Origin: a virus
Strand: one strand, 5' to 3'
IMG/VR virus record: IMGVR_UViG_3300015371_000109
Coordinates: 1-33,914 of that record
Length of the DNA stretch: 33,914 nt
In this document: in pieces, positions 8,107-33,914 of the stretch
How the letters are laid out: every line of letters begins with the position of its first letter
Position numbering within the stretch: position 1 is the first letter of the stretch
The notes under the pieces: generated by a model
Database searches by the model: none
What the model was told of the DNA's origin: nothing
What the model saw: only the letters and a program-made list of their open reading frames with translations
Program-made: the position numbers and the translations under genes

Positions 8107-10407
8107 ATGTTCCATCCTGTAGAGTTTTTAATGAATGCGCGGGATGGTCTGAAGAATTTAGTTTCGAAGATCGGCCACCCAAGCAAAGACAAGGCTGCAA
8201 ATTGGGTTTGGGATTTTGCGCCCTTAACGGGGCCAGAATGCCTTGCAATGTACACAAGCGATTGGCTACCAAGAAAAATCGTTGATATTGTCCCTCAAGA
8301 TGCGACAAGAGAATGGAGGAAATGGCAAGCCAAAGATAAGCAAGCTGAAAAACTTTATGCTTTGGAAAAAGCATTAAAGGTTCGCTCAAAGATAATGCGA
8401 GCAATGCAGCTTGATCGTTTATTTGGCGGGTCAGCAATATTGATTGGAACAGGCGACAAGGATATAGAAGAACCATTAGATGTAACGAAGATAAAGCAAA
8501 ACGGGATTAAATATCTTAGAGTCTTTTCTCGTTATGATCTTCGTGCTGGTGATCTTGTTAACAACATTGAAGACGATGCATATGGCTTACCGCAATGGTA
8601 CGAATTGCTTCGTCAACGCGATGGCAAAGATGTCGGCTTAAAAATCCACAGAAGTCGCTTCGTATTCTTTATTTCAAATCCCTTGCCTACAGATTGGTTG
8701 ACATACAATGCTAATCCTGAAGTCAGTGGCAATAGCGTTTATGCTGCATACGATAGTCAAATTGGTTGGGGACAATCGATTTACGAGCCAATTCGCAAAG
8801 CATTGGTGAATGCTGGCGCTGTTGCAGAGAACGTTGCTGCATTGGTCGAAGAAGCGAAACTTGATATTATTCAAGTTCCGAACCTGATCAGCTACATGAA
8901 CAACGATGAAAGTCAAAGTAAGCTCATTTCTCGTTTTTCTTTGGCTTCGCTGCTCAAAGCCAACAATAACATGTTGCTCTTGGGCGGTGATGAAAAGTTT
9001 GACCGCAAGCAAATATCATTTGCGCAGCTTCCTGAGATCATGAATGCGAACCTCCAGATTGCTTCTGGTGCTGCTGACATTCCCATTGTTCGTTTACTTG
9101 GTCAGTCGCCTAGTGGTCTTAACGCTAGTGGCGATACTGATATGCGGATGCATTATGATAAGATCAAATCGCATCAGACGAATGATCTTAAGGAAGGTTG
9201 CTTGGTTGATCTAGATGAGGCGTTCATTCGCAGTGCATTGGGCGGCCGTCCAGAAGAAATCGACTATGAATTTGATTCGCTCTGGCAGATGTCTGAGCCT
9301 GAGCTTGCGGATGTTTCCTTAAAGAAGTCACAAGCTTTTATGCAGATTAACGGGCTTGGCTTGTTTGCTCCTGAAGAACTACGCCCAGCCGTTGCTGACG
9401 TTATTGTTGATGATGGGTTCTTGCCGACACTTGATCAACATCTTCTTTCTGAAGAAGAGGCAAATAACGTTCTTGAAGAGCAGCAAAAGCAACAACTTGA
9501 GCAGCAACAACAACTTTCTGGTCAAGGCAATAGCCCTAATCAAGGCAATAATCCTCCACAAAATCAGACGCCACAAGCTGATGAAGCATCAGATTGGATT
9601 GAATTCTTGGACGCAAATCCTGATATTGCTTATGACTCTTTCGAGGAAACTGCGCATCCGCGTGGTCCTGGCGGGCGTTGGTCTGATAAACCCGGCATGG
9701 GTAACAAGACCAAAACTTTGCCATGGTGGCAACGTGGTGAGAAGCCAGAACAACCAAAGCAAGCAGCCTCTAAGGAAGCAACGCCCGGAACTGGCGGACA
9801 AGGCGGCAAACCAAAATATGCTTTATCGCTTGAAATTTTGAATGAAGCGGCAAAGAACGCACTTCCAAAAGAGCACAAGGTTTATAAGGGTGGAGAGCCA
9901 GTAGAGACTAAAACAAAGATTGGAAAACAGGACACTGGTAAGCTTGCAGAGAAGCACGTTCTTAATTGGTTAAAAGAACAGGGTTTGCAAGATGCACAAC
10001 AATTGAATGCAAAGATATCCAATTATCCAGTTGATTTGTTCGCTGGCAACTTGCTTATTGAGGTTAAGGGCGGTCTTATTTCCAATAGTAAGAAAGCCCG
10101 CAGATGGCGTGCTTCTATTGGACAGCCTAGTAAAACAGAACAAGCCCATTTGGATACTCTTACTCCAGAAGAGAAGTTTGCGCATAATGCAGCAAAAGAT
10201 CAGGCCATTATGGATCGCAAACAAGCCGTTCTAGATGAGTATTCGCAGAAACTTAATCAACCTGTTAAAGGTGTTACGATTACAACGATTTTCCATCCTG
10301 ACGAAAAAACCTTCGACTTGCATGTGTTTGAAGGCTTTCATAAAGTAATCAATTGGGATTCAGAGGAGGCTAAAAATGCCTACCGAGGCACCTTTAAGCA
10401 CTCCTAA
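8107..10407 (+). CDS. DUF1073-type portal protein with C-terminal nuclease-like domain
   Basis: Residues about 1-450 form a DUF1073 (Phage_portal_3-type) portal, the dodecameric channel through which DNA enters the head: landmarks are YTSDWLPRKIVDIVPQDATREW (about 49-70), RLFGGSAILIG (104-114) and a 'PIVRLLGQSPSGLNASGD' segment (about 326-343). A glutamine-rich linker (455-490) follows, then a HPRGPGGRW motif (517-525). Residues about 570-766 are an extra domain: TGKLAEKHVLNWL (610-622), then PVDLF (641-645) and LLIEVKGG (649-656), giving D643, E652 and K654 in a PD-(D/E)xK-like arrangement. Related portal-family proteins are named after the anti-CBASS enzyme Acb1 because some carry that domain at their C-terminus; no HxT/HxS pairs typical of Acb1 are evident here. 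Portal call is strong; nuclease call is inferred. Confidence 0.85.
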   Translation: MFHPVEFLMNARDGLKNLVSKIGHPSKDKAANWVWDFAPLTGPECLAMYTSDWLPRKIVDIVPQDATREWRKWQAKDKQAEKLYALEKALKVRSKIMRAMQLDRLFGGSAILIGTGDKDIEEPLDVTKIKQNGIKYLRVFSRYDLRAGDLVNNIEDDAYGLPQWYELLRQRDGKDVGLKIHRSRFVFFISNPLPTDWLTYNANPEVSGNSVYAAYDSQIGWGQSIYEPIRKALVNAGAVAENVAALVEEAKLDIIQVPNLISYMNNDESQSKLISRFSLASLLKANNNMLLLGGDEKFDRKQISFAQLPEIMNANLQIASGAADIPIVRLLGQSPSGLNASGDTDMRMHYDKIKSHQTNDLKEGCLVDLDEAFIRSALGGRPEEIDYEFDSLWQMSEPELADVSLKKSQAFMQINGLGLFAPEELRPAVADVIVDDGFLPTLDQHLLSEEEANNVLEEQQKQQLEQQQQLSGQGNSPNQGNNPPQNQTPQADEASDWIEFLDANPDIAYDSFEETAHPRGPGGRWSDKPGMGNKTKTLPWWQRGEKPEQPKQAASKEATPGTGGQGGKPKYALSLEILNEAAKNALPKEHKVYKGGEPVETKTKIGKQDTGKLAEKHVLNWLKEQGLQDAQQLNAKISNYPVDLFAGNLLIEVKGGLISNSKKARRWRASIGQPSKTEQAHLDTLTPEEKFAHNAAKDQAIMDRKQAVLDEYSQKLNQPVKGVTITTIFHPDEKTFDLHVFEGFHKVINWDSEEAKNAYRGTFKHS

Positions 10408-10656: not shown

Positions 10657-10857
10657 ATGCCCAAGTATTGTGAAGAATGTCATGGGCGAGGTTGGGTATG
10701 GGAACCAATTTATAGGAAAGTCGCCCCTAATTTTGTTCCTAAACAAGGACCAAATGAGCCGCTAGAACAAAGAGCTTATAAAAAAGTCTGTATGTCTTGT
10801 TTGCGAGCAATTGACAACAGTAAGAGAAAACCACATAAGGTAGAAATCAATGCCTAA
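10657..10857 (+). CDS. Zinc-ribbon protein, 66 aa
   Basis: Starts MPKYCEECHGRGW. Cysteine pairs at residues 5/8 and 45/48 form a clear four-cysteine zinc site; the first knuckle with its HGRGW sequence resembles a DnaJ-type CxxCxGxG repeat. The rest is basic and proline-rich, and the C-terminus is charged. The stop overlaps the start of the next gene by eight bases. No enzyme motif is visible. It begins an accessory block lying between the portal and the minor head gene. Confidence 0.65.
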   Translation: MPKYCEECHGRGWVWEPIYRKVAPNFVPKQGPNEPLEQRAYKKVCMSCLRAIDNSKRKPHKVEINA

Positions 10858-11653
10858 TTTCTTTGGATACTATGGAAACGGATACACTGGCCTTGGTGAT
10901 GTTACTGCTATCACCAAGTCTTATAGCAATCTTGTTTGGATCGATCCTGCACAGGAAACTGACCAAACTTTAAAGCAAAAATTTGAGAACGCGAAGGTTA
11001 ATCAACAGAAGGTAATTCTTGTTGTAACGACCTTTATGTTCAAGTACCCATCAACAGAATTACTTCCAGACGCTGCTCAAAAGTTTAAAGACCTTTACTC
11101 AAAGGTTATTCAATATAGCAATTTAATACTGGCTTTCTTCCTTTTTGATGAACCGTACAGAAATAACGACAAGAACATTCACCTTGACCCAAAGGTTGTT
11201 TCGTTAAACTTAGATGGTGCCCATGTAATCATTGAACAATATAGTGGCGGCAAAGCAACAATGATTAGTGGGGCAGGCAATGAATTCGATAAGTTTGGTT
11301 TGCCAAAGCTTGTTAACATTATTGGGATGTATCGCTATTCTTATAATACTTCTGGCTATCAATTAAGTTGGTCTTACATGAATCTTATCTTTAAGAAGAA
11401 ATCCGAACAGAAAGTCATTGCGATTGCTGATGCATTCGAATGGCCTGACAAACCTATTGATGAAAAGCGCATTATTAACTTTAACAACACTTGGAAATTC
11501 CTTATTAAATACTTCGGTAAAGACGTTATTGGCGTTTGCCCCTTTCTTTACCAGTCCAGTCCTATGGGACAGGGCGCTGACAAAATGCCGAATGTGCGCG
11601 AATATATGAAGAATTGGGCTGAAGGAATCTTAGGACTGCAAGGTGTTGCATGA
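10850..11653 (+). CDS. TIM-barrel glycoside-hydrolase-like protein
   Basis: This 267-aa protein starts MPNFFGYYGNGYTG and shows a repeating strand-helix pattern typical of a TIM barrel: NLVWID (27-32), VILVVTTFMF (55-64), LILAFFLFDEPY (92-103), VNIIGMY (155-161), VIAIADAFEW (189-198) and VIGVCPFLY (226-234). The strand ending in FDEP (E101) and the strand ending in ADAFEW are at places where glycosidases keep catalytic acids. No exact family is recognised and enzymatic activity is inferred. There is no signal peptide. A role in attacking host surface glycans, or decorating the virion, would fit its carbohydrate-binding-like neighbour. ATG follows within the end of the zinc-ribbon gene. Confidence 0.5.
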   Translation: MPNFFGYYGNGYTGLGDVTAITKSYSNLVWIDPAQETDQTLKQKFENAKVNQQKVILVVTTFMFKYPSTELLPDAAQKFKDLYSKVIQYSNLILAFFLFDEPYRNNDKNIHLDPKVVSLNLDGAHVIIEQYSGGKATMISGAGNEFDKFGLPKLVNIIGMYRYSYNTSGYQLSWSYMNLIFKKKSEQKVIAIADAFEWPDKPIDEKRIINFNNTWKFLIKYFGKDVIGVCPFLYQSSPMGQGADKMPNVREYMKNWAEGILGLQGVA

Positions 11654-11877
11654 ATAAAGCACAAACTGTACCGCATGCAGAAGACGAAGAAGCCAGGAAG
11701 TTTGATCCAAATGACTTCTTTCCCGGGACAATTTTATTGTGGCTCATGTATGCTGGCAGAGATAGATGGTTAATTGCAGACTGGAACGAAAAAGAACAAT
11801 ATTGGATGATAATTCCAGGCTGGGAGGAAGTAGACAAAAGATGGTTAACCTACTGGAAGCCACTATATAATGAATGA
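11650..11877 (+). CDS. Hypothetical tryptophan-rich protein, 75 aa
   Basis: ATG overlaps the preceding TGA as ATGA, and the gene's end overlaps the next start by eight bases. The product begins MNKAQTVPHAEDEEARK and then contains seven tryptophans in about 45 residues (for example RWLIADW, QYWMIIPGW, RWLTYW), with beta-strand-like alternation. This could be a small beta-sheet glycan-binding or protein-binding domain, but no family is known to me. Its position between a hydrolase-like and a carbohydrate-binding-like gene is the only context. Confidence 0.6.
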   Translation: MNKAQTVPHAEDEEARKFDPNDFFPGTILLWLMYAGRDRWLIADWNEKEQYWMIIPGWEEVDKRWLTYWKPLYNE

Positions 11878-13435
11878 TGACGATCAACCATCATTAGATC
11901 GATTACCGAGAGTAGTAATCGAGCAAATAGTAGAGTTGGGTTCAGCAAGAAAGCTGAAACCCTATGGCTTTGCCGACTTTTATTTGCTTGCTTGTCCTGA
12001 TGCTTTAGTTGATGTAAATGATCAGGTTGACTATCTTCCGCAAGGAGATAATTACGGACAATTCAATAAAGTAATACAGAAGAGGGTTTTCAATCATCAG
12101 GCTTTTCCTGGCGAAGTCGTAAGAGAACAATTTAAGCCTACAACATATCAGGAAGTTGTTTACGTTCCTGGCGTTGAACCTAACACAATTCATCCAGCCG
12201 TTGGATTATTTACTTTATCTGGAAGGGCTATTTCTCTTGTTAAGGCTGGCGGTCTTTCTCCAACAAAAACTTATGATTTTTCTTCAAGTCTTCCTTCTGG
12301 AATCACATTTACACGAGGAAGTTCTGCAACATATATTAATTCCTCTGGTGTCTTAACATCTGCTGCTAACGATGTCGCTAGAATAGATTATGACCCAACA
12401 ACTCTTGTTTCTAAGGGTCTTTTAATTGAAGAATCTAGAGCAAATCAAGTACTTCAAAGTAGCAATCTTAGTGTTTCTCCATGGAGTTCCTTTACTAATG
12501 GAGACGGAACGGTTGTTGTTACAGCAAATAACGCCGTTGCTCCTGATGGAACAAATACCGCAGTTAAGATAGATTTTAACAGAAGTAATAATACTAACTG
12601 GGCTGAATTTATTCAAAGTGGCATTGCTATACCAAATAATGGATCGACTCATTTTCAATCAATTTGGCTTAAAGCTGCTACGGGCGCTGATGTTGGTAAA
12701 GTTGTCAGTCTTAGTATGCATGATGGCTCTTTCAAAGGCGTCATTAACATAACTTTAACGGCCAATTGGGTTCGGTATTCAACAAGTGGTGTTCTAGCCA
12801 CAACTAGCCAATTCTTACTTGGATATTTTGGAACCGCAGGAACTCCTAACACTGGCGCTGTTTCTGTTCATGCTTGGGGAGCACAAATAGAGGCTGGCCC
12901 CTTTCTTACCTCTTATATACCGACAACAACTGGCGCTGTTACGCGAAGCGCGGATTCCGCTACAGTAACTGGTACGAACTTCTCTAGCTGGTATAATCAA
13001 TCTGCTGGAACATTTGTTATAAATGGAGATAGCCTTGGAATTCCTGGGGGATTTTTGAGTTATTTAACATCTGCTAACGATGGCACTGGGAATAATGTTG
13101 TTTCTCTTGGTCGCTATGGTCAACAATTAGGAACACCAGGCAATGTTTTAGCTCATATTGGAAATGCTAACGTCGATCAAGCACTTTTAAATGGTGGTGC
13201 TGTATCTAACAATGTACCATTTAAACAAGCCCTTGCTTATGCATTAAATGACTTCTCTATGGTTTTAAATGGTGGAACGCCAGTAACGGATGCATCGGGC
13301 ACTCCACCGACAGCGCCAGATAGATTAAGCATTGGTAATAGAGTTGGTGCTGATATATGGTGTGGGCACATTAAGAAAATAGACTTCTATAATACCCGTA
13401 GGACAAACAGCGAACTACAGGCACTTACAACATGA
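11870..13435 (+). CDS. Structural protein with carbohydrate-binding-like domains
   Basis: A 521-aa protein. Residues about 1-110 have no recognised domain. From about 130, 'TFTRGSSATYINSSGVLTS' and 'KGLLIEESRANQVLQSS' form the signature of a domain common in phage fibre, decoration and appendage proteins. About residues 195-350 look like a carbohydrate-binding (jelly-roll) module, and the rest looks like a concanavalin/LamG-like beta sandwich ending in DRLSIGNRVGADIWCG and IKKIDFYNTRRTNSELQ. It likely binds glycans on the virion surface, but it is encoded in the head region rather than with tail fibres. No signal peptide; start at 11870 follows by overlap. Confidence 0.65.
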   Translation: MNDDDQPSLDRLPRVVIEQIVELGSARKLKPYGFADFYLLACPDALVDVNDQVDYLPQGDNYGQFNKVIQKRVFNHQAFPGEVVREQFKPTTYQEVVYVPGVEPNTIHPAVGLFTLSGRAISLVKAGGLSPTKTYDFSSSLPSGITFTRGSSATYINSSGVLTSAANDVARIDYDPTTLVSKGLLIEESRANQVLQSSNLSVSPWSSFTNGDGTVVVTANNAVAPDGTNTAVKIDFNRSNNTNWAEFIQSGIAIPNNGSTHFQSIWLKAATGADVGKVVSLSMHDGSFKGVINITLTANWVRYSTSGVLATTSQFLLGYFGTAGTPNTGAVSVHAWGAQIEAGPFLTSYIPTTTGAVTRSADSATVTGTNFSSWYNQSAGTFVINGDSLGIPGGFLSYLTSANDGTGNNVVSLGRYGQQLGTPGNVLAHIGNANVDQALLNGGAVSNNVPFKQALAYALNDFSMVLNGGTPVTDASGTPPTAPDRLSIGNRVGADIWCGHIKKIDFYNTRRTNSELQALTT

Positions 13436-18545: not shown

Positions 18546-18914
18546 ATGTATGAATATCAAGCCAAATACATTAGGGTTGTCGATGGCGATACTGTTGATC
18601 TCGACATTGATCTTGGTTTAGATATTCATCATCAGATCAGAGTAAGGTTGTATGGGATAAATACTCCAGAACTTCATTCGCCTGATCCTGAAGAGCAAAA
18701 GAAGGCAAAAGAGGCCAAACGATATTTAGAATATTCTTTGCTAATTCTGCCGAATTTAAAAAGTAAAGACCTATTAGTTAGGACAAAGAAAGATAAAACA
18801 GAGAAATATGGCAGATATCTTGCTGAAATCTTTACAGATAATGATCCGGTTTCAGTTAATCAAAAACTGATAGACGCTGGCTTTGCTGTTCCTTACTTCG
18901 GAAAGAATGAATAA
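18546..18914 (+). CDS. Staphylococcal-nuclease-like (thermonuclease) protein
   Basis: A 122-aa SNase-fold protein: VVDGDTVDLDIDLG (11-24), RVRLYGINTPE (32-42) and EKYGRYLAEIF (86-96). Residues D20/D22, R34, E42 and R90 correspond by position to the metal- and phosphate-binding residues of the staphylococcal enzyme (compare its R35, E43 and R87), so it is probably active as a calcium-dependent nuclease. No signal peptide, so it would act in the cell or virion rather than be secreted. It is embedded in the head completion genes (the ATG directly follows the DUF4054 stop, and its stop overlaps the next start). A role in packaging, DNA degradation or defence is possible. Confidence 0.85.
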   Translation: MYEYQAKYIRVVDGDTVDLDIDLGLDIHHQIRVRLYGINTPELHSPDPEEQKKAKEAKRYLEYSLLILPNLKSKDLLVRTKKDKTEKYGRYLAEIFTDNDPVSVNQKLIDAGFAVPYFGKNE

Positions 18915-31463: not shown

Positions 31464-32654
31464 ATGGCAGACTTCAATATTCCAAACATCCCGATGCCCG
31501 TCATTGATCAGTATGGGCTAACTTTGCCCATGCTAGATGATATTCATGGATGGCTAAGGGGAGTTTTCCAGTCTATTTATGGCACAGACATTTATATTGA
31601 GCCAGATAGCCAAGACGGCCAGCTTATTGGAGTTCTGGCAAAGTCGAAACATGATTATGTCTCTGTGATTAATGCAGTTTATCAATCTTTTTCGCCATCA
31701 ACCGCACAAGGCGTTGGACTTTCCAGGGTTGTGAAGATTAATGGAATTAGAAGGAATGCGTCTAGCAGGTCTCAAGTTGATTTGAGAATTGTTGGTATTC
31801 CTGGCACTATTATCGTAAACGGCATTGCGGAAGATGCTCTCGGTCAACAGTGGGCGCTGCCAACTCCAATAACAATTCCCCTTGTTGCTGAAATGATCGT
31901 TAGGGGAACCTGCACCGAGGATGGCGACAAACAAGCGCCAGCACATACAGTAACCAATATCAAAAATTCTGTTAAGGGCTGGCAGAGTGTTGATAATCCT
32001 GAGCCTGCTATTGTTGGCATGCCTGTCGAAACTGATGGGCAATTACGTGTTCGTCAGTCTCTTTCTACTGAAATTCCTAGTCGTTCCTTGCTTGAAGGAA
32101 TGATCGGCGCTGTTGCTTCCCTTCCGGGAGTCTTCAGGTATAGGGGATACGAGAACGAAGAATTCGGAACGAATGCCGATGGAATGCCTTCCCATTCTTT
32201 CACCATGGTTGTCGATGGTGGCGATCCTGTCGCTATTGCTGAAGTCATTCGGTTAAAGAAAGCTCCGGGAGTGGTTACCTATGGAACTACTAGTGAAATT
32301 GTGGTTGACGAGGCTGGAATTCCACATACAATTCAGTTTTCTCGTTCTCGGGATGTTCCAATTCGAGTCATTATTCCTGTTAGACCCAAAGGGGGCTACA
32401 CTACAACTATCGATTCTAAACTAAGGACTACTGTTTCGGATTGGGTTAATAACTTACATCCTGGCGATGACATTGTGCTTTCTCAACTTACTTCGAAGGC
32501 AACTTTGGATAATAATCCAGCTTTCGAAATTGAGAGGCCAGTTACACTTGGAAGGTTAATCGGCGGAACGCAAGTCGAAAGTGATTTGGTTATGGCGTTC
32601 GATGAACACGCTTCACTTACGCCAGACAATGTTTTGATAACTAGAGTCGTTTAA
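31464..32654 (+). CDS. Baseplate J-like wedge protein
   Basis: A 396-aa protein starting MADFNIPNIPMPVIDQYG. Landmarks of the J family (P2 gpJ/ Mu gp47): 'WLRGVFQSIYGTDIYIEPDSQDGQLIGVLA' (about 30-59), 'QSFSPSTAQGVGLSRVVKINGIRRN' (about 74-98), 'TDGQLRVRQSLSTEIPSRSLLEGMIGAVASLPGV' (about 190-223) and 'HPGDDIVLSQL' near the end. It forms the wedge ring around the hub. All expected segments are present. Confidence 0.9.
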   Translation: MADFNIPNIPMPVIDQYGLTLPMLDDIHGWLRGVFQSIYGTDIYIEPDSQDGQLIGVLAKSKHDYVSVINAVYQSFSPSTAQGVGLSRVVKINGIRRNASSRSQVDLRIVGIPGTIIVNGIAEDALGQQWALPTPITIPLVAEMIVRGTCTEDGDKQAPAHTVTNIKNSVKGWQSVDNPEPAIVGMPVETDGQLRVRQSLSTEIPSRSLLEGMIGAVASLPGVFRYRGYENEEFGTNADGMPSHSFTMVVDGGDPVAIAEVIRLKKAPGVVTYGTTSEIVVDEAGIPHTIQFSRSRDVPIRVIIPVRPKGGYTTTIDSKLRTTVSDWVNNLHPGDDIVLSQLTSKATLDNNPAFEIERPVTLGRLIGGTQVESDLVMAFDEHASLTPDNVLITRVV

Positions 32655-33409
32655 TGGCACTATACGAAACAGACGATTACCTAAAACTTCTTCCATCTTT
32701 TCATAGGTGGCAGCCGAAATTTCGCGCGACCGTAGAGGCTTTAGTAAGCTTCGATGTTGCAATGGCGAAATTTGTGGCAGACATGCCGCGTCAATTCGAT
32801 ATTGACGAAGCAATAGGAGTGCAATTAGACGTAGTTGGTCAATGGGTTGGCCGCGACAGAATGGTAAAAGTTCCTGTCGATAATCTTTGGTTTTCTTTTG
32901 GTGACGCACAAAAAGGTTTTGGTTTAGGCTACTGGAAGGGAATATTCGATCAAGACCTAGGCATCGTTGCTTTGGACGATGAATCATACAGGCAGCTTCT
33001 TTATGCCAAGATTATCGTAAATAATTGGGACGGGACGTTTGAAACAGCCCGCGATCTTCTAAATAGTTATTTCGGAACTTCATCGCCTGGAACAATCTTT
33101 TTAATTGATGATCACGGTGACGGGTCTGCAACCTATGCTATGGTTGGCAAAATCCCGTTGCCCCTTTACTTGGCCTTGTTTTCATGGGACTATCTGCCGC
33201 TTGAACCGGCAGGTATGAAGATATATTATAGGGTTGTCAGCGTCGACAACACGCCTATGTTTGGTTTCGGAGTGCAAAACTCCAAGGTCGCAGGCTGGGG
33301 AACAGGTTCATGGGGAACCGATCCCGTCAACGTTCTGTATAGACAAGCCTCGCGCGTTATGGATTTCAGCGATCCGCTATCAAGTGGCTTCATTGCGGCG
33401 GTAACATAA
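32654..33409 (+). CDS. DUF2612-type baseplate/fibre-attachment protein
   Basis: A 251-aa protein; ATG overlaps the J-gene stop as TAATG. 'FRATVEALVSFDVAMAKFVADMPRQFDIDEAIGVQLDVVGQWVGRDR' (about 23-69) and 'SYRQLLYAKIIVNNWDGTFETARDLLNSYFG' (about 111-141) match DUF2612, the functional partner of J that often connects baseplate and fibres (gpI-like role). Length and position are normal. Confidence 0.8.
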   Translation: MALYETDDYLKLLPSFHRWQPKFRATVEALVSFDVAMAKFVADMPRQFDIDEAIGVQLDVVGQWVGRDRMVKVPVDNLWFSFGDAQKGFGLGYWKGIFDQDLGIVALDDESYRQLLYAKIIVNNWDGTFETARDLLNSYFGTSSPGTIFLIDDHGDGSATYAMVGKIPLPLYLALFSWDYLPLEPAGMKIYYRVVSVDNTPMFGFGVQNSKVAGWGTGSWGTDPVNVLYRQASRVMDFSDPLSSGFIAAVT

Positions 33410-33914
33410 TGAGATTTAGGAACTTACTAGTATATTCCAGCTTTTTGGTAGCTTGGCTTACTGCCCAAGCTTTTGCCGATTGGACGCTTCCGACTCCTGG
33501 CGGTCCTGTTACGTGGGATGCATTCGTTACTGGTGCTGGAACTAAACAACTTCCTAAACAAGTTATTGCCGATTCTGTTGGCGCTCAATTAGGAACTGTA
33601 GGAAATCCCCTTTTTGCTAGATTTGCCGCTGGCGGAAACAACGTTTCCATTAGTTCAGCCGGCGCTATGGCTTTCAATATTACGCAATTAAATGGCGCCA
33701 CCATTAGCGGTGCAAATCCTTTATTTCTTAATACTATTATTGGCGGCGCTTCCTTAGCTTCCAATAACCCGCTTCCTGGGCAACTTTCGCAATCAAACGC
33801 CGTCTTATCAAATTCTAATCCCTTATCGTTTAGTCCGGTAGCAAGTGGTGCTGTTGTTGGCGGCTCGAATCCTCTTTATGTCACTCCTTCAAGCGAGCCA
33901 ATTACATTTAGCGC
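33409..33914 (+). CDS. Fibre-like protein with signal peptide and 17-residue repeats (partial)
   Basis: ATG overlaps the preceding stop as TAATG, with GGCGG upstream; 168 codons are visible and the frame runs off the right edge. The first 23 residues look like a Sec signal peptide: positively charged N-terminus (MRFRN), hydrophobic core (LLVYSSFLVAWL) and AFA-D cleavage site. From residue 66 on, N-P-L triplets recur at 66, 103, 120, 137 and 154; the last four are exactly 17 residues apart, giving a beta-rich repetitive region as in fibre shafts. A secretory signal is unusual for a phage tail protein. It could be a baseplate fibre or an envelope-targeted protein. Confidence 0.75.
   Translation, partial: MRFRNLLVYSSFLVAWLTAQAFADWTLPTPGGPVTWDAFVTGAGTKQLPKQVIADSVGAQLGTVGNPLFARFAAGGNNVSISSAGAMAFNITQLNGATISGANPLFLNTIIGGASLASNNPLPGQLSQSNAVLSNSNPLSFSPVASGAVVGGSNPLYVTPSSEPITFS

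Follow-up and report, generated by a model that had tools for sequence, protein, structure and literature searches.

The usual assumption is that phage tail fibres are synthesised and put together in the cytoplasm. The last open reading frame (ORF) of the virus record IMGVR_UViG_3300015371_000109 follows directly on baseplate genes and begins with a predicted Sec signal peptide, which raises the question of where its product goes. An earlier note had described the ORF as a tail fibre-like protein with a signal peptide and exact 17-residue repeats, and had proposed that the protein either is exported, for example for superinfection exclusion or receptor masking, or is anchored to the baseplate by its hydrophobic N-terminus. 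The window analyzed here is the entire IMG/VR record of 33,914 bases.

The phage fragment and its last gene

The window is a fragment of a contractile-tailed phage, with the gene order terminase, portal, major head protein, baseplate hub, J and DUF2612 on the plus strand. The best matches of the portal were in rhizobial phages, and the nearest DUF2612 matches in genomes included several in Bosea, Methylobacterium and other Rhizobiales-type contigs. The DUF2612 stop codon ends on the A with which the start ATG of the last ORF begins, and no stop codon occurs in this ORF through the end of the record, where the frame is still open. The overlap places the two genes in the same operon and makes coupled translation of the last ORF likely (Table 1).

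Some other genes of the window were recorded in passing. The protein encoded at 11870-13435, inside the head cluster with the portal gene on one side and the DUF2213 gene on the other, matched the 'tail protein' family phrog_5939 (E 1e-72) and is perhaps a head fibre. In the portal (8107-10407), Phage_portal_3 covers residues 44-411 of 766, leaving a long C-terminal part in which one stretch looks nuclease-like by eye. An SNase-type nuclease (PF00565) is encoded amid the head-tail genes at 18546-18914, and a 267-aa protein among the head genes (10850-11653) had no match in PHROGs or Pfam.

Table 1. Features at the 3' end of the window
Feature	Position	Strand	Basis or remark
Baseplate J-like gene	31464..32654	+	PF04865, phrog_6
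DUF2612 baseplate/tail gene, directly upstream of the last ORF	32654..33409	+	PF11041 E 4e-45; phrog_587
Possible ribosome site CGGCGG	33396-33401	+	by eye
TAATG overlap of DUF2612 stop and last-ORF start	33407..33411	+	direct reading
Last ORF, truncated orphan with 168 aa visible; proposed exported fibre-like protein	33409..33914	+	no family or homologue
Predicted Sec signal peptide, residues 1-23, cleavage between AFA and DW	33409..33477	+	score 4.19
First NPL (residue 66), out of register with the other four	33604..33612	+	
Degenerate 17-residue repeats, NPL 103/120/137/154	33700..33912	+	record ends inside

Searches with the last-ORF protein gave no credible relative. It matched none of the PHROGs and Pfam families, and no hydrolase domain was found in the visible part. 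No match at E <= 1 was obtained by tblastn against 50,697 phage records, and the best values were E 2 against plasmids (tblastn) and E 0.14 against PDB sequences, neither credible. A peptide-pattern scan of viral contigs matched 7 stretches and confirmed none. Matches in a search over 17 handles had E 0.08 or worse and appeared chance-like on reading. Among 385 alphaproteobacterial genomes there were 5 matches at E <= 0.01, none of them credible; the best of these (E 2e-4) overlapped a low-complexity frame and was rejected. A single-sequence AF2 model reached a mean pLDDT of only 36.7 and contained a low-confidence helix at residues 2-21.

The label 'tail fibre-like' given in the earlier note thus found no support from homology, neither in a PHROGs or Pfam family nor in a phage or viral-contig relative. 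What speaks for 'fibre-like' is the position after DUF2612 and the composition. The mature part begins DWTLPTPGG, consists of Gly, Ser, Thr, Asn and Ala to 53%, has 7 charged residues in 145 and contains no Cys in these 145 visible residues; such a composition would be compatible with a beta-rich fibre, which it does not prove. Like a tail fibre or spike gene the ORF lies directly after baseplate genes, and it lacks homology to known fibre families; as this homology was tested and not found, the protein is not classed as a tail fibre. The absence of a phage homologue, together with a record that ends within the ORF, might also be explained if the contig end were chimeric or carried a host gene foreign to the phage, but the TAATG overlap with the DUF2612 gene on the same strand makes this very improbable.

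Predicted signal peptide and repeats of the last ORF

The N-terminus of the protein, MRFRNLLVYSSFLVAWLTAQAFA followed by DWTL, is a predicted Sec/signal peptidase I signal peptide, with R2 and R4, an uncharged hydrophobic core (best 9-residue Kyte-Doolittle mean 2.19) and A-F-A ahead of D24. A hand-written rule was applied that looks for a net positive n-region, a core of nine uncharged residues with mean hydropathy >= 1.6, and small residues at -3 and -1; all of these features are present in the last ORF. It scored 4.19, compared with 2.98 for the second-best window ORF with 100 aa or more. As a control, the rule was run on 824 genes (200 aa or longer) from the region upstream of DUF2612 in related loci; their products are expected to be cytoplasmic or virion proteins, and one of them reached 4.0. 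The signal-peptide start proposed for this ORF was therefore borne out by the sequence rule. Since the visible ORF has no Cys, the signal is of the signal peptidase I type. A looser rule used earlier was discarded, as it produced start-codon artefacts (TTG or GTG upstream of MATNDFL..).

NPL triplets were found at residues 66, 103, 120, 137 and 154. The last four are spaced by exactly 17 residues, as claimed. In 100,000 shuffles of the mature sequence four NPL never occurred, and when five triplets were placed at random, four fell in exact progression in 102 of 100,000 trials. The self-identity of the protein at offset 17 was equalled in 10 of 5,000 shuffles. The four NPL at a 17-residue step are not due to chance and represent a degenerate protein repeat. 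The word 'exact' does not hold beyond the triplet: the 17-residue units have 4-6 of 17 residues in common, NPL included, the fifth NPL is off register, and Tandem Repeats Finder detected no tandem repeat in the DNA. In viral contigs, a scan for NPL at period 17 returned 46 stretches, 14 of them with three in-frame NPL, and none resembled the last ORF.

Genes following DUF2612 in related tail operons

Scans with single DUF2612 sequences gave no matches, while profile scans succeeded. With the DUF2612 and J profiles, 80 viral and 65 genome loci and then 80 J loci, partly overlapping, were gathered. DUF2612 was recognised by motif in 151 distinct loci, 150 of which have at least 200 bases beyond it. 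The next gene was an ordinary fibre (MxTNxFLPFAxGGGANV..) in 116 of these 150 loci by motif and in 29 of the remaining 34 by eye.

A signal-bearing ORF (>= 150 codons, score >= 3.4) directly after DUF2612 was found in none of the 123 loci that extend 2.5 kb or more downstream. In five loci (L004, L069, L070, L077 and L118, of which L004, L069 and L077 represent one lineage) a signal-bearing fibre-like ORF lies 1.3-2.3 kb beyond, after the ordinary fibre; the remaining signal-bearing downstream matches in the 123 loci were mostly lysis-type or membrane proteins by eye. Signal-bearing fibre-like genes were also present in L242 and L261, where the motif test had missed DUF2612, and L261 has two in succession. 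Such tandem genes, at 9836-11138 in L261, occur as well in L338, L347 and L356 downstream of a gene of the BcepC6B gp19 family. The signal-bearing ORFs of L004, L069, L070, L118 and L242 matched PHROGs tail-fibre families, and neither signal-bearing gene of L261 had a PHROGs match. In syntenic phages, the signal-bearing fibre-like genes are thus additional to the ordinary fibre and placed after it.

The last ORF, which sits right after DUF2612 in the slot that its relatives use for the ordinary fibre, could for this reason be the virion fibre itself. This is also what speaks for the proposal that its hydrophobic N-terminus stays on and ties the product, as a virion protein, to the baseplate, so that no export takes place. 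That proposal is improbable in view of the complete signal peptide, including a cleavage site, and of the phages described below, in which the cleavage site and the following Q-F are kept as the core varies and Cys pairs track the signal.

Signal-bearing fibres in isolated phages

The earlier note had considered a signal peptide on a phage structural protein unusual; this needs qualification, as such signals recur on other fibres. BcepC6B gp19 begins with the signal peptide MKKLIAILLAVPALALGA.., PBR31 gp35 with MKKLIALFSLFCTSAFGA.. and the BcepNY3 tail spike with MNMKKILSRVFACAIVLAAFSQFALG followed by QF.., and BgManors32 and its relatives have signal-bearing fibre proteins too. The signal was already noticed by annotators, since the records of Bcep781 gp49 and Bcep43 gp48 read 'possible tail fiber; possible signal peptide domain'. 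Signal-bearing fibre proteins are therefore of a known kind, and one that is barely discussed: in the part of the literature that our searches reached, no work discussing signal peptides on tail fibres and no virion proteomics of a signal-positive fibre was found, which for the former is not proof of absence.

In the Bcep781-like phages the signal-bearing gene is located among the tail genes and annotated as tail fibre. Bcep781 gp49, Bcep43 gp48, Bcep1 gp51 and BcepNY3 gp50 resemble the last ORF in having a signal peptide and in being encoded among tail genes, and in the Bcep781 pair gp50/gp49 the start overlaps the preceding stop, as in the last ORF. The mature part of this group starts QFxPGQxLTAxQLN..GGTLTGPL, carries other end domains and has no sequence similarity to the last-ORF protein, in which QFxPGQxLTAxxLN does not follow the cleavage site. 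In Bcep781, BcepNY3, BgManors32 and their relatives the sequence QFxPGQxLTAxQLN directly after an A or G at the cleavage site is kept, and the hydrophobic core diverges. Of 27 relatives of this N-module in viral contigs 24 were called signal-positive, in a sample biased by a query that included the signal region; the three uncalled loci were L388 (Bcep43, gene joined from two pieces), L380 and L389 (no frame found). This joining in the record of the signal-bearing Bcep43 gp48 gene (L291, 2988-5061) suggests a frameshift near the signal peptide.

The BcepC6B gp19 / PBR31 gp35 family (phrog_11393, 'tail fiber'), whose genes lie near tail and lysis genes, shares with the last ORF the signal peptide and a low-complexity, Gly/Ser/Ala/Thr/Asn-rich fibre-like body. 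It differs in having paired Cys and a TNF/C1q-like C-terminal domain, whereas the last ORF, cut at residue 168, has no Cys in its 145 visible mature residues and thus no such pair. The last-ORF protein is not homologous to the signal-positive fibre families.

In the JC1 virion proteomics study, gp57 and gp59 were absent from the reported virion proteins (PMC9144972). JC1 gp59 scored 3.62 by the signal rule, and BcepIL02 gp61 and gp62 scored 3.04 and 3.38, all three with a shared, weakly charged MALKLSNNAV-type head. Signal peptides on JC1 gp57 and gp59 and on the BcepIL02 fibres were judged not real, and the JC1 data are therefore uninformative for signal-bearing fibres.

Cysteines and fold in the BcepC6B gp19 family

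Relatives of BcepC6B gp19 were sought in viral contigs by patterns from the C-terminal half, not from the start. From the best 80 of 286 relatives, 49 of the 78 with a closed 5' end were signal-positive; the signal-negative members mostly had other, hydrophilic heads, such as MADTFRIIPYVVRSAGTDVPPEEVQ. Three members were left out before Cys were counted: L310 and L369, which lack a closed 5' end, and L323, which has 9 Cys and a misplaced start and whose signal was not called. After removal of duplicates 59 members remained, 44 signal-positive and 15 signal-negative.

At least two mature Cys were present in 42 of 44 signal-positive but only 2 of 15 signal-negative members (Fisher p 2.5e-9); with L323 retained, the latter count was 3 of 16. 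Within the homologous C-terminal domain only, the counts were 28/44 and 1/15 (Fisher p 1.7e-4). Both p-values are weakened by kinship among the members: the family tree is poorly supported, and independent pairs for signal versus Cys numbered 1-2 on supported branches and 7 on the best tree. Several Cys columns occurred together, namely 425/503 (in the same seven members), 423/523 (the same five), 378/391 (the same three) and 411, always with 517 (four); no co-occurring pair was found in signal-negative members, four of which have a lone Cys at column 517. Columns 427, 442, 487, 515 and 517, taken singly, showed no clean pairing. On the best tree, both columns of 425/503 change six times and both of 423/523 four times. 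A Cx15-17C motif (PSCSxxxSALxYTSGTGFxC; L292-L371 family, mature residues ~54-140) was shared by 33 of the 44 signal-positive members and by none of the 15 signal-negative ones.

Disulfide bonds form in the periplasm, not in the cytoplasm. Paired Cys columns are the trace expected of such bonds, and the Cys pairs linked to the signal thus suggest that these proteins are truly exported to a compartment with oxidising conditions.

The AF2 model computed for L361 from 42 sequences has a C-terminal domain (~228-343) with a pLDDT near 95 and the fold of a TNF/C1q-type jelly roll, with matches to the cyanophage A4 tail (Z 10.2), the A-1(L) short tail fibre binding domain (Z 9.3), the secreted chlamydial protein Pgp3 (Z 8.9) and the lectin BC2L-C (Z 8.8). 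Trimeric tips of this modelled type would be compatible with receptor or sugar binding; a shared fold shows no function.

Proposed destination of the last-ORF protein

The sequence comparisons show that signal-bearing fibre proteins recur among phages and bear marks of real export, which is well supported for the class. Most simply, its members would be binding proteins of the fibre type that are produced late in infection, exported and oxidised. Between the two fates proposed for the last ORF, export is favoured over the baseplate anchor, mainly on evidence from other phages: signals recur in different operons, the cleavage site and the Q-F are kept as the core varies, and Cys are paired. For the last ORF itself export is argued by analogy, as it shares with the class the compartment signal and the operon region, without homology or visible Cys.

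Translation of the last ORF would follow straight after the baseplate genes through the TAATG overlap and give late expression. Residues 1-23 would direct the protein to the host Sec pathway, signal peptidase I would cut after AFA, and a fibre-like beta-repeat protein would be freed to the periplasm or cell surface instead of the cytoplasm in which tails are assembled. There it would most likely bind the envelope structure recognised by the phage's own fibres, so that infected cells and debris would no longer trap or re-admit progeny. Our confidence is evenly divided on this reading, in which the last ORF encodes a fibre-like protein that is made late, leaves by Sec and acts at the envelope, where it might mask the phage receptor. 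Masking is preferred because syntenic phages have the signal-bearing gene besides their ordinary fibre and because the tip domain is common with signal-less fibres; with no homologue and no visible Cys, it is a hypothesis for this protein.

The chief rival is loading onto virions at lysis, in which the protein would be exported, oxidised and trimerised outside and then join virions as a fibre. It is strongest for Bcep781-type phages, since Bcep781 gp49 and BcepNY3 gp50 are encoded among tail genes, and it would agree with the position in a structural operon and with the tip domain common to signal-positive members and signal-negative fibres. We consider it unlikely for the last ORF, as the gene is additional to the ordinary fibre in syntenic phages; to our knowledge, no tailed phage finishes its tail outside the cytoplasm. 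An exported accessory gene is another candidate reading: Magia and PBR31 have acyltransferase, esterase or deacetylase genes after their fibre genes, and the last ORF could be a moron or adhesin that alters the surface of a lysogen, unrelated to phage adsorption. Coupling to the late baseplate operon tells against this; because of it the ORF is probably silent in a lysogen, and we regard an accessory role as rather improbable.

Receptor masking has parallels among phage lipoproteins. Llp of T5 and Cor of phi80 and N15 are small superinfection exclusion lipoproteins with a lipobox, encoded beside receptor-binding genes. They correspond to the role proposed here in being phage-encoded, exported and proposed to act on the receptor; the last-ORF protein differs in being larger, without Cys in its visible part, hence without the lipobox Cys, and of the signal peptidase I type. 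SAR and signal-peptide endolysins are phage proteins that exploit host Sec (PMC6116005). The last ORF is like them in its predicted use of Sec and unlike them in its beta-repeat composition and in having no hydrolase domain in the visible part.

A wider reading, which we offer tentatively and hold to be more doubtful than the one for the last ORF, is that a cleavable Sec signal ahead of a fibre-type copy arose in several phage lineages and that the exported, disulfide-bonded tip occupies the phage's own receptor. The tip would act late in infection or during lysogeny and block re-adsorption, and the last ORF would be an independent, Cys-free case in the fibre slot. If so, phages would have their own equivalent of the receptor interference exerted by endogenous retroviral envelope proteins. 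If the recurrent class, with its signal-linked Cys pairs, has functional export signals, 'tail fiber' as annotated in many phages from Burkholderia and other proteobacteria would designate proteins that may never enter the virion through assembly in the cytoplasm. This matters for predicting host range and for finding superinfection-exclusion factors.
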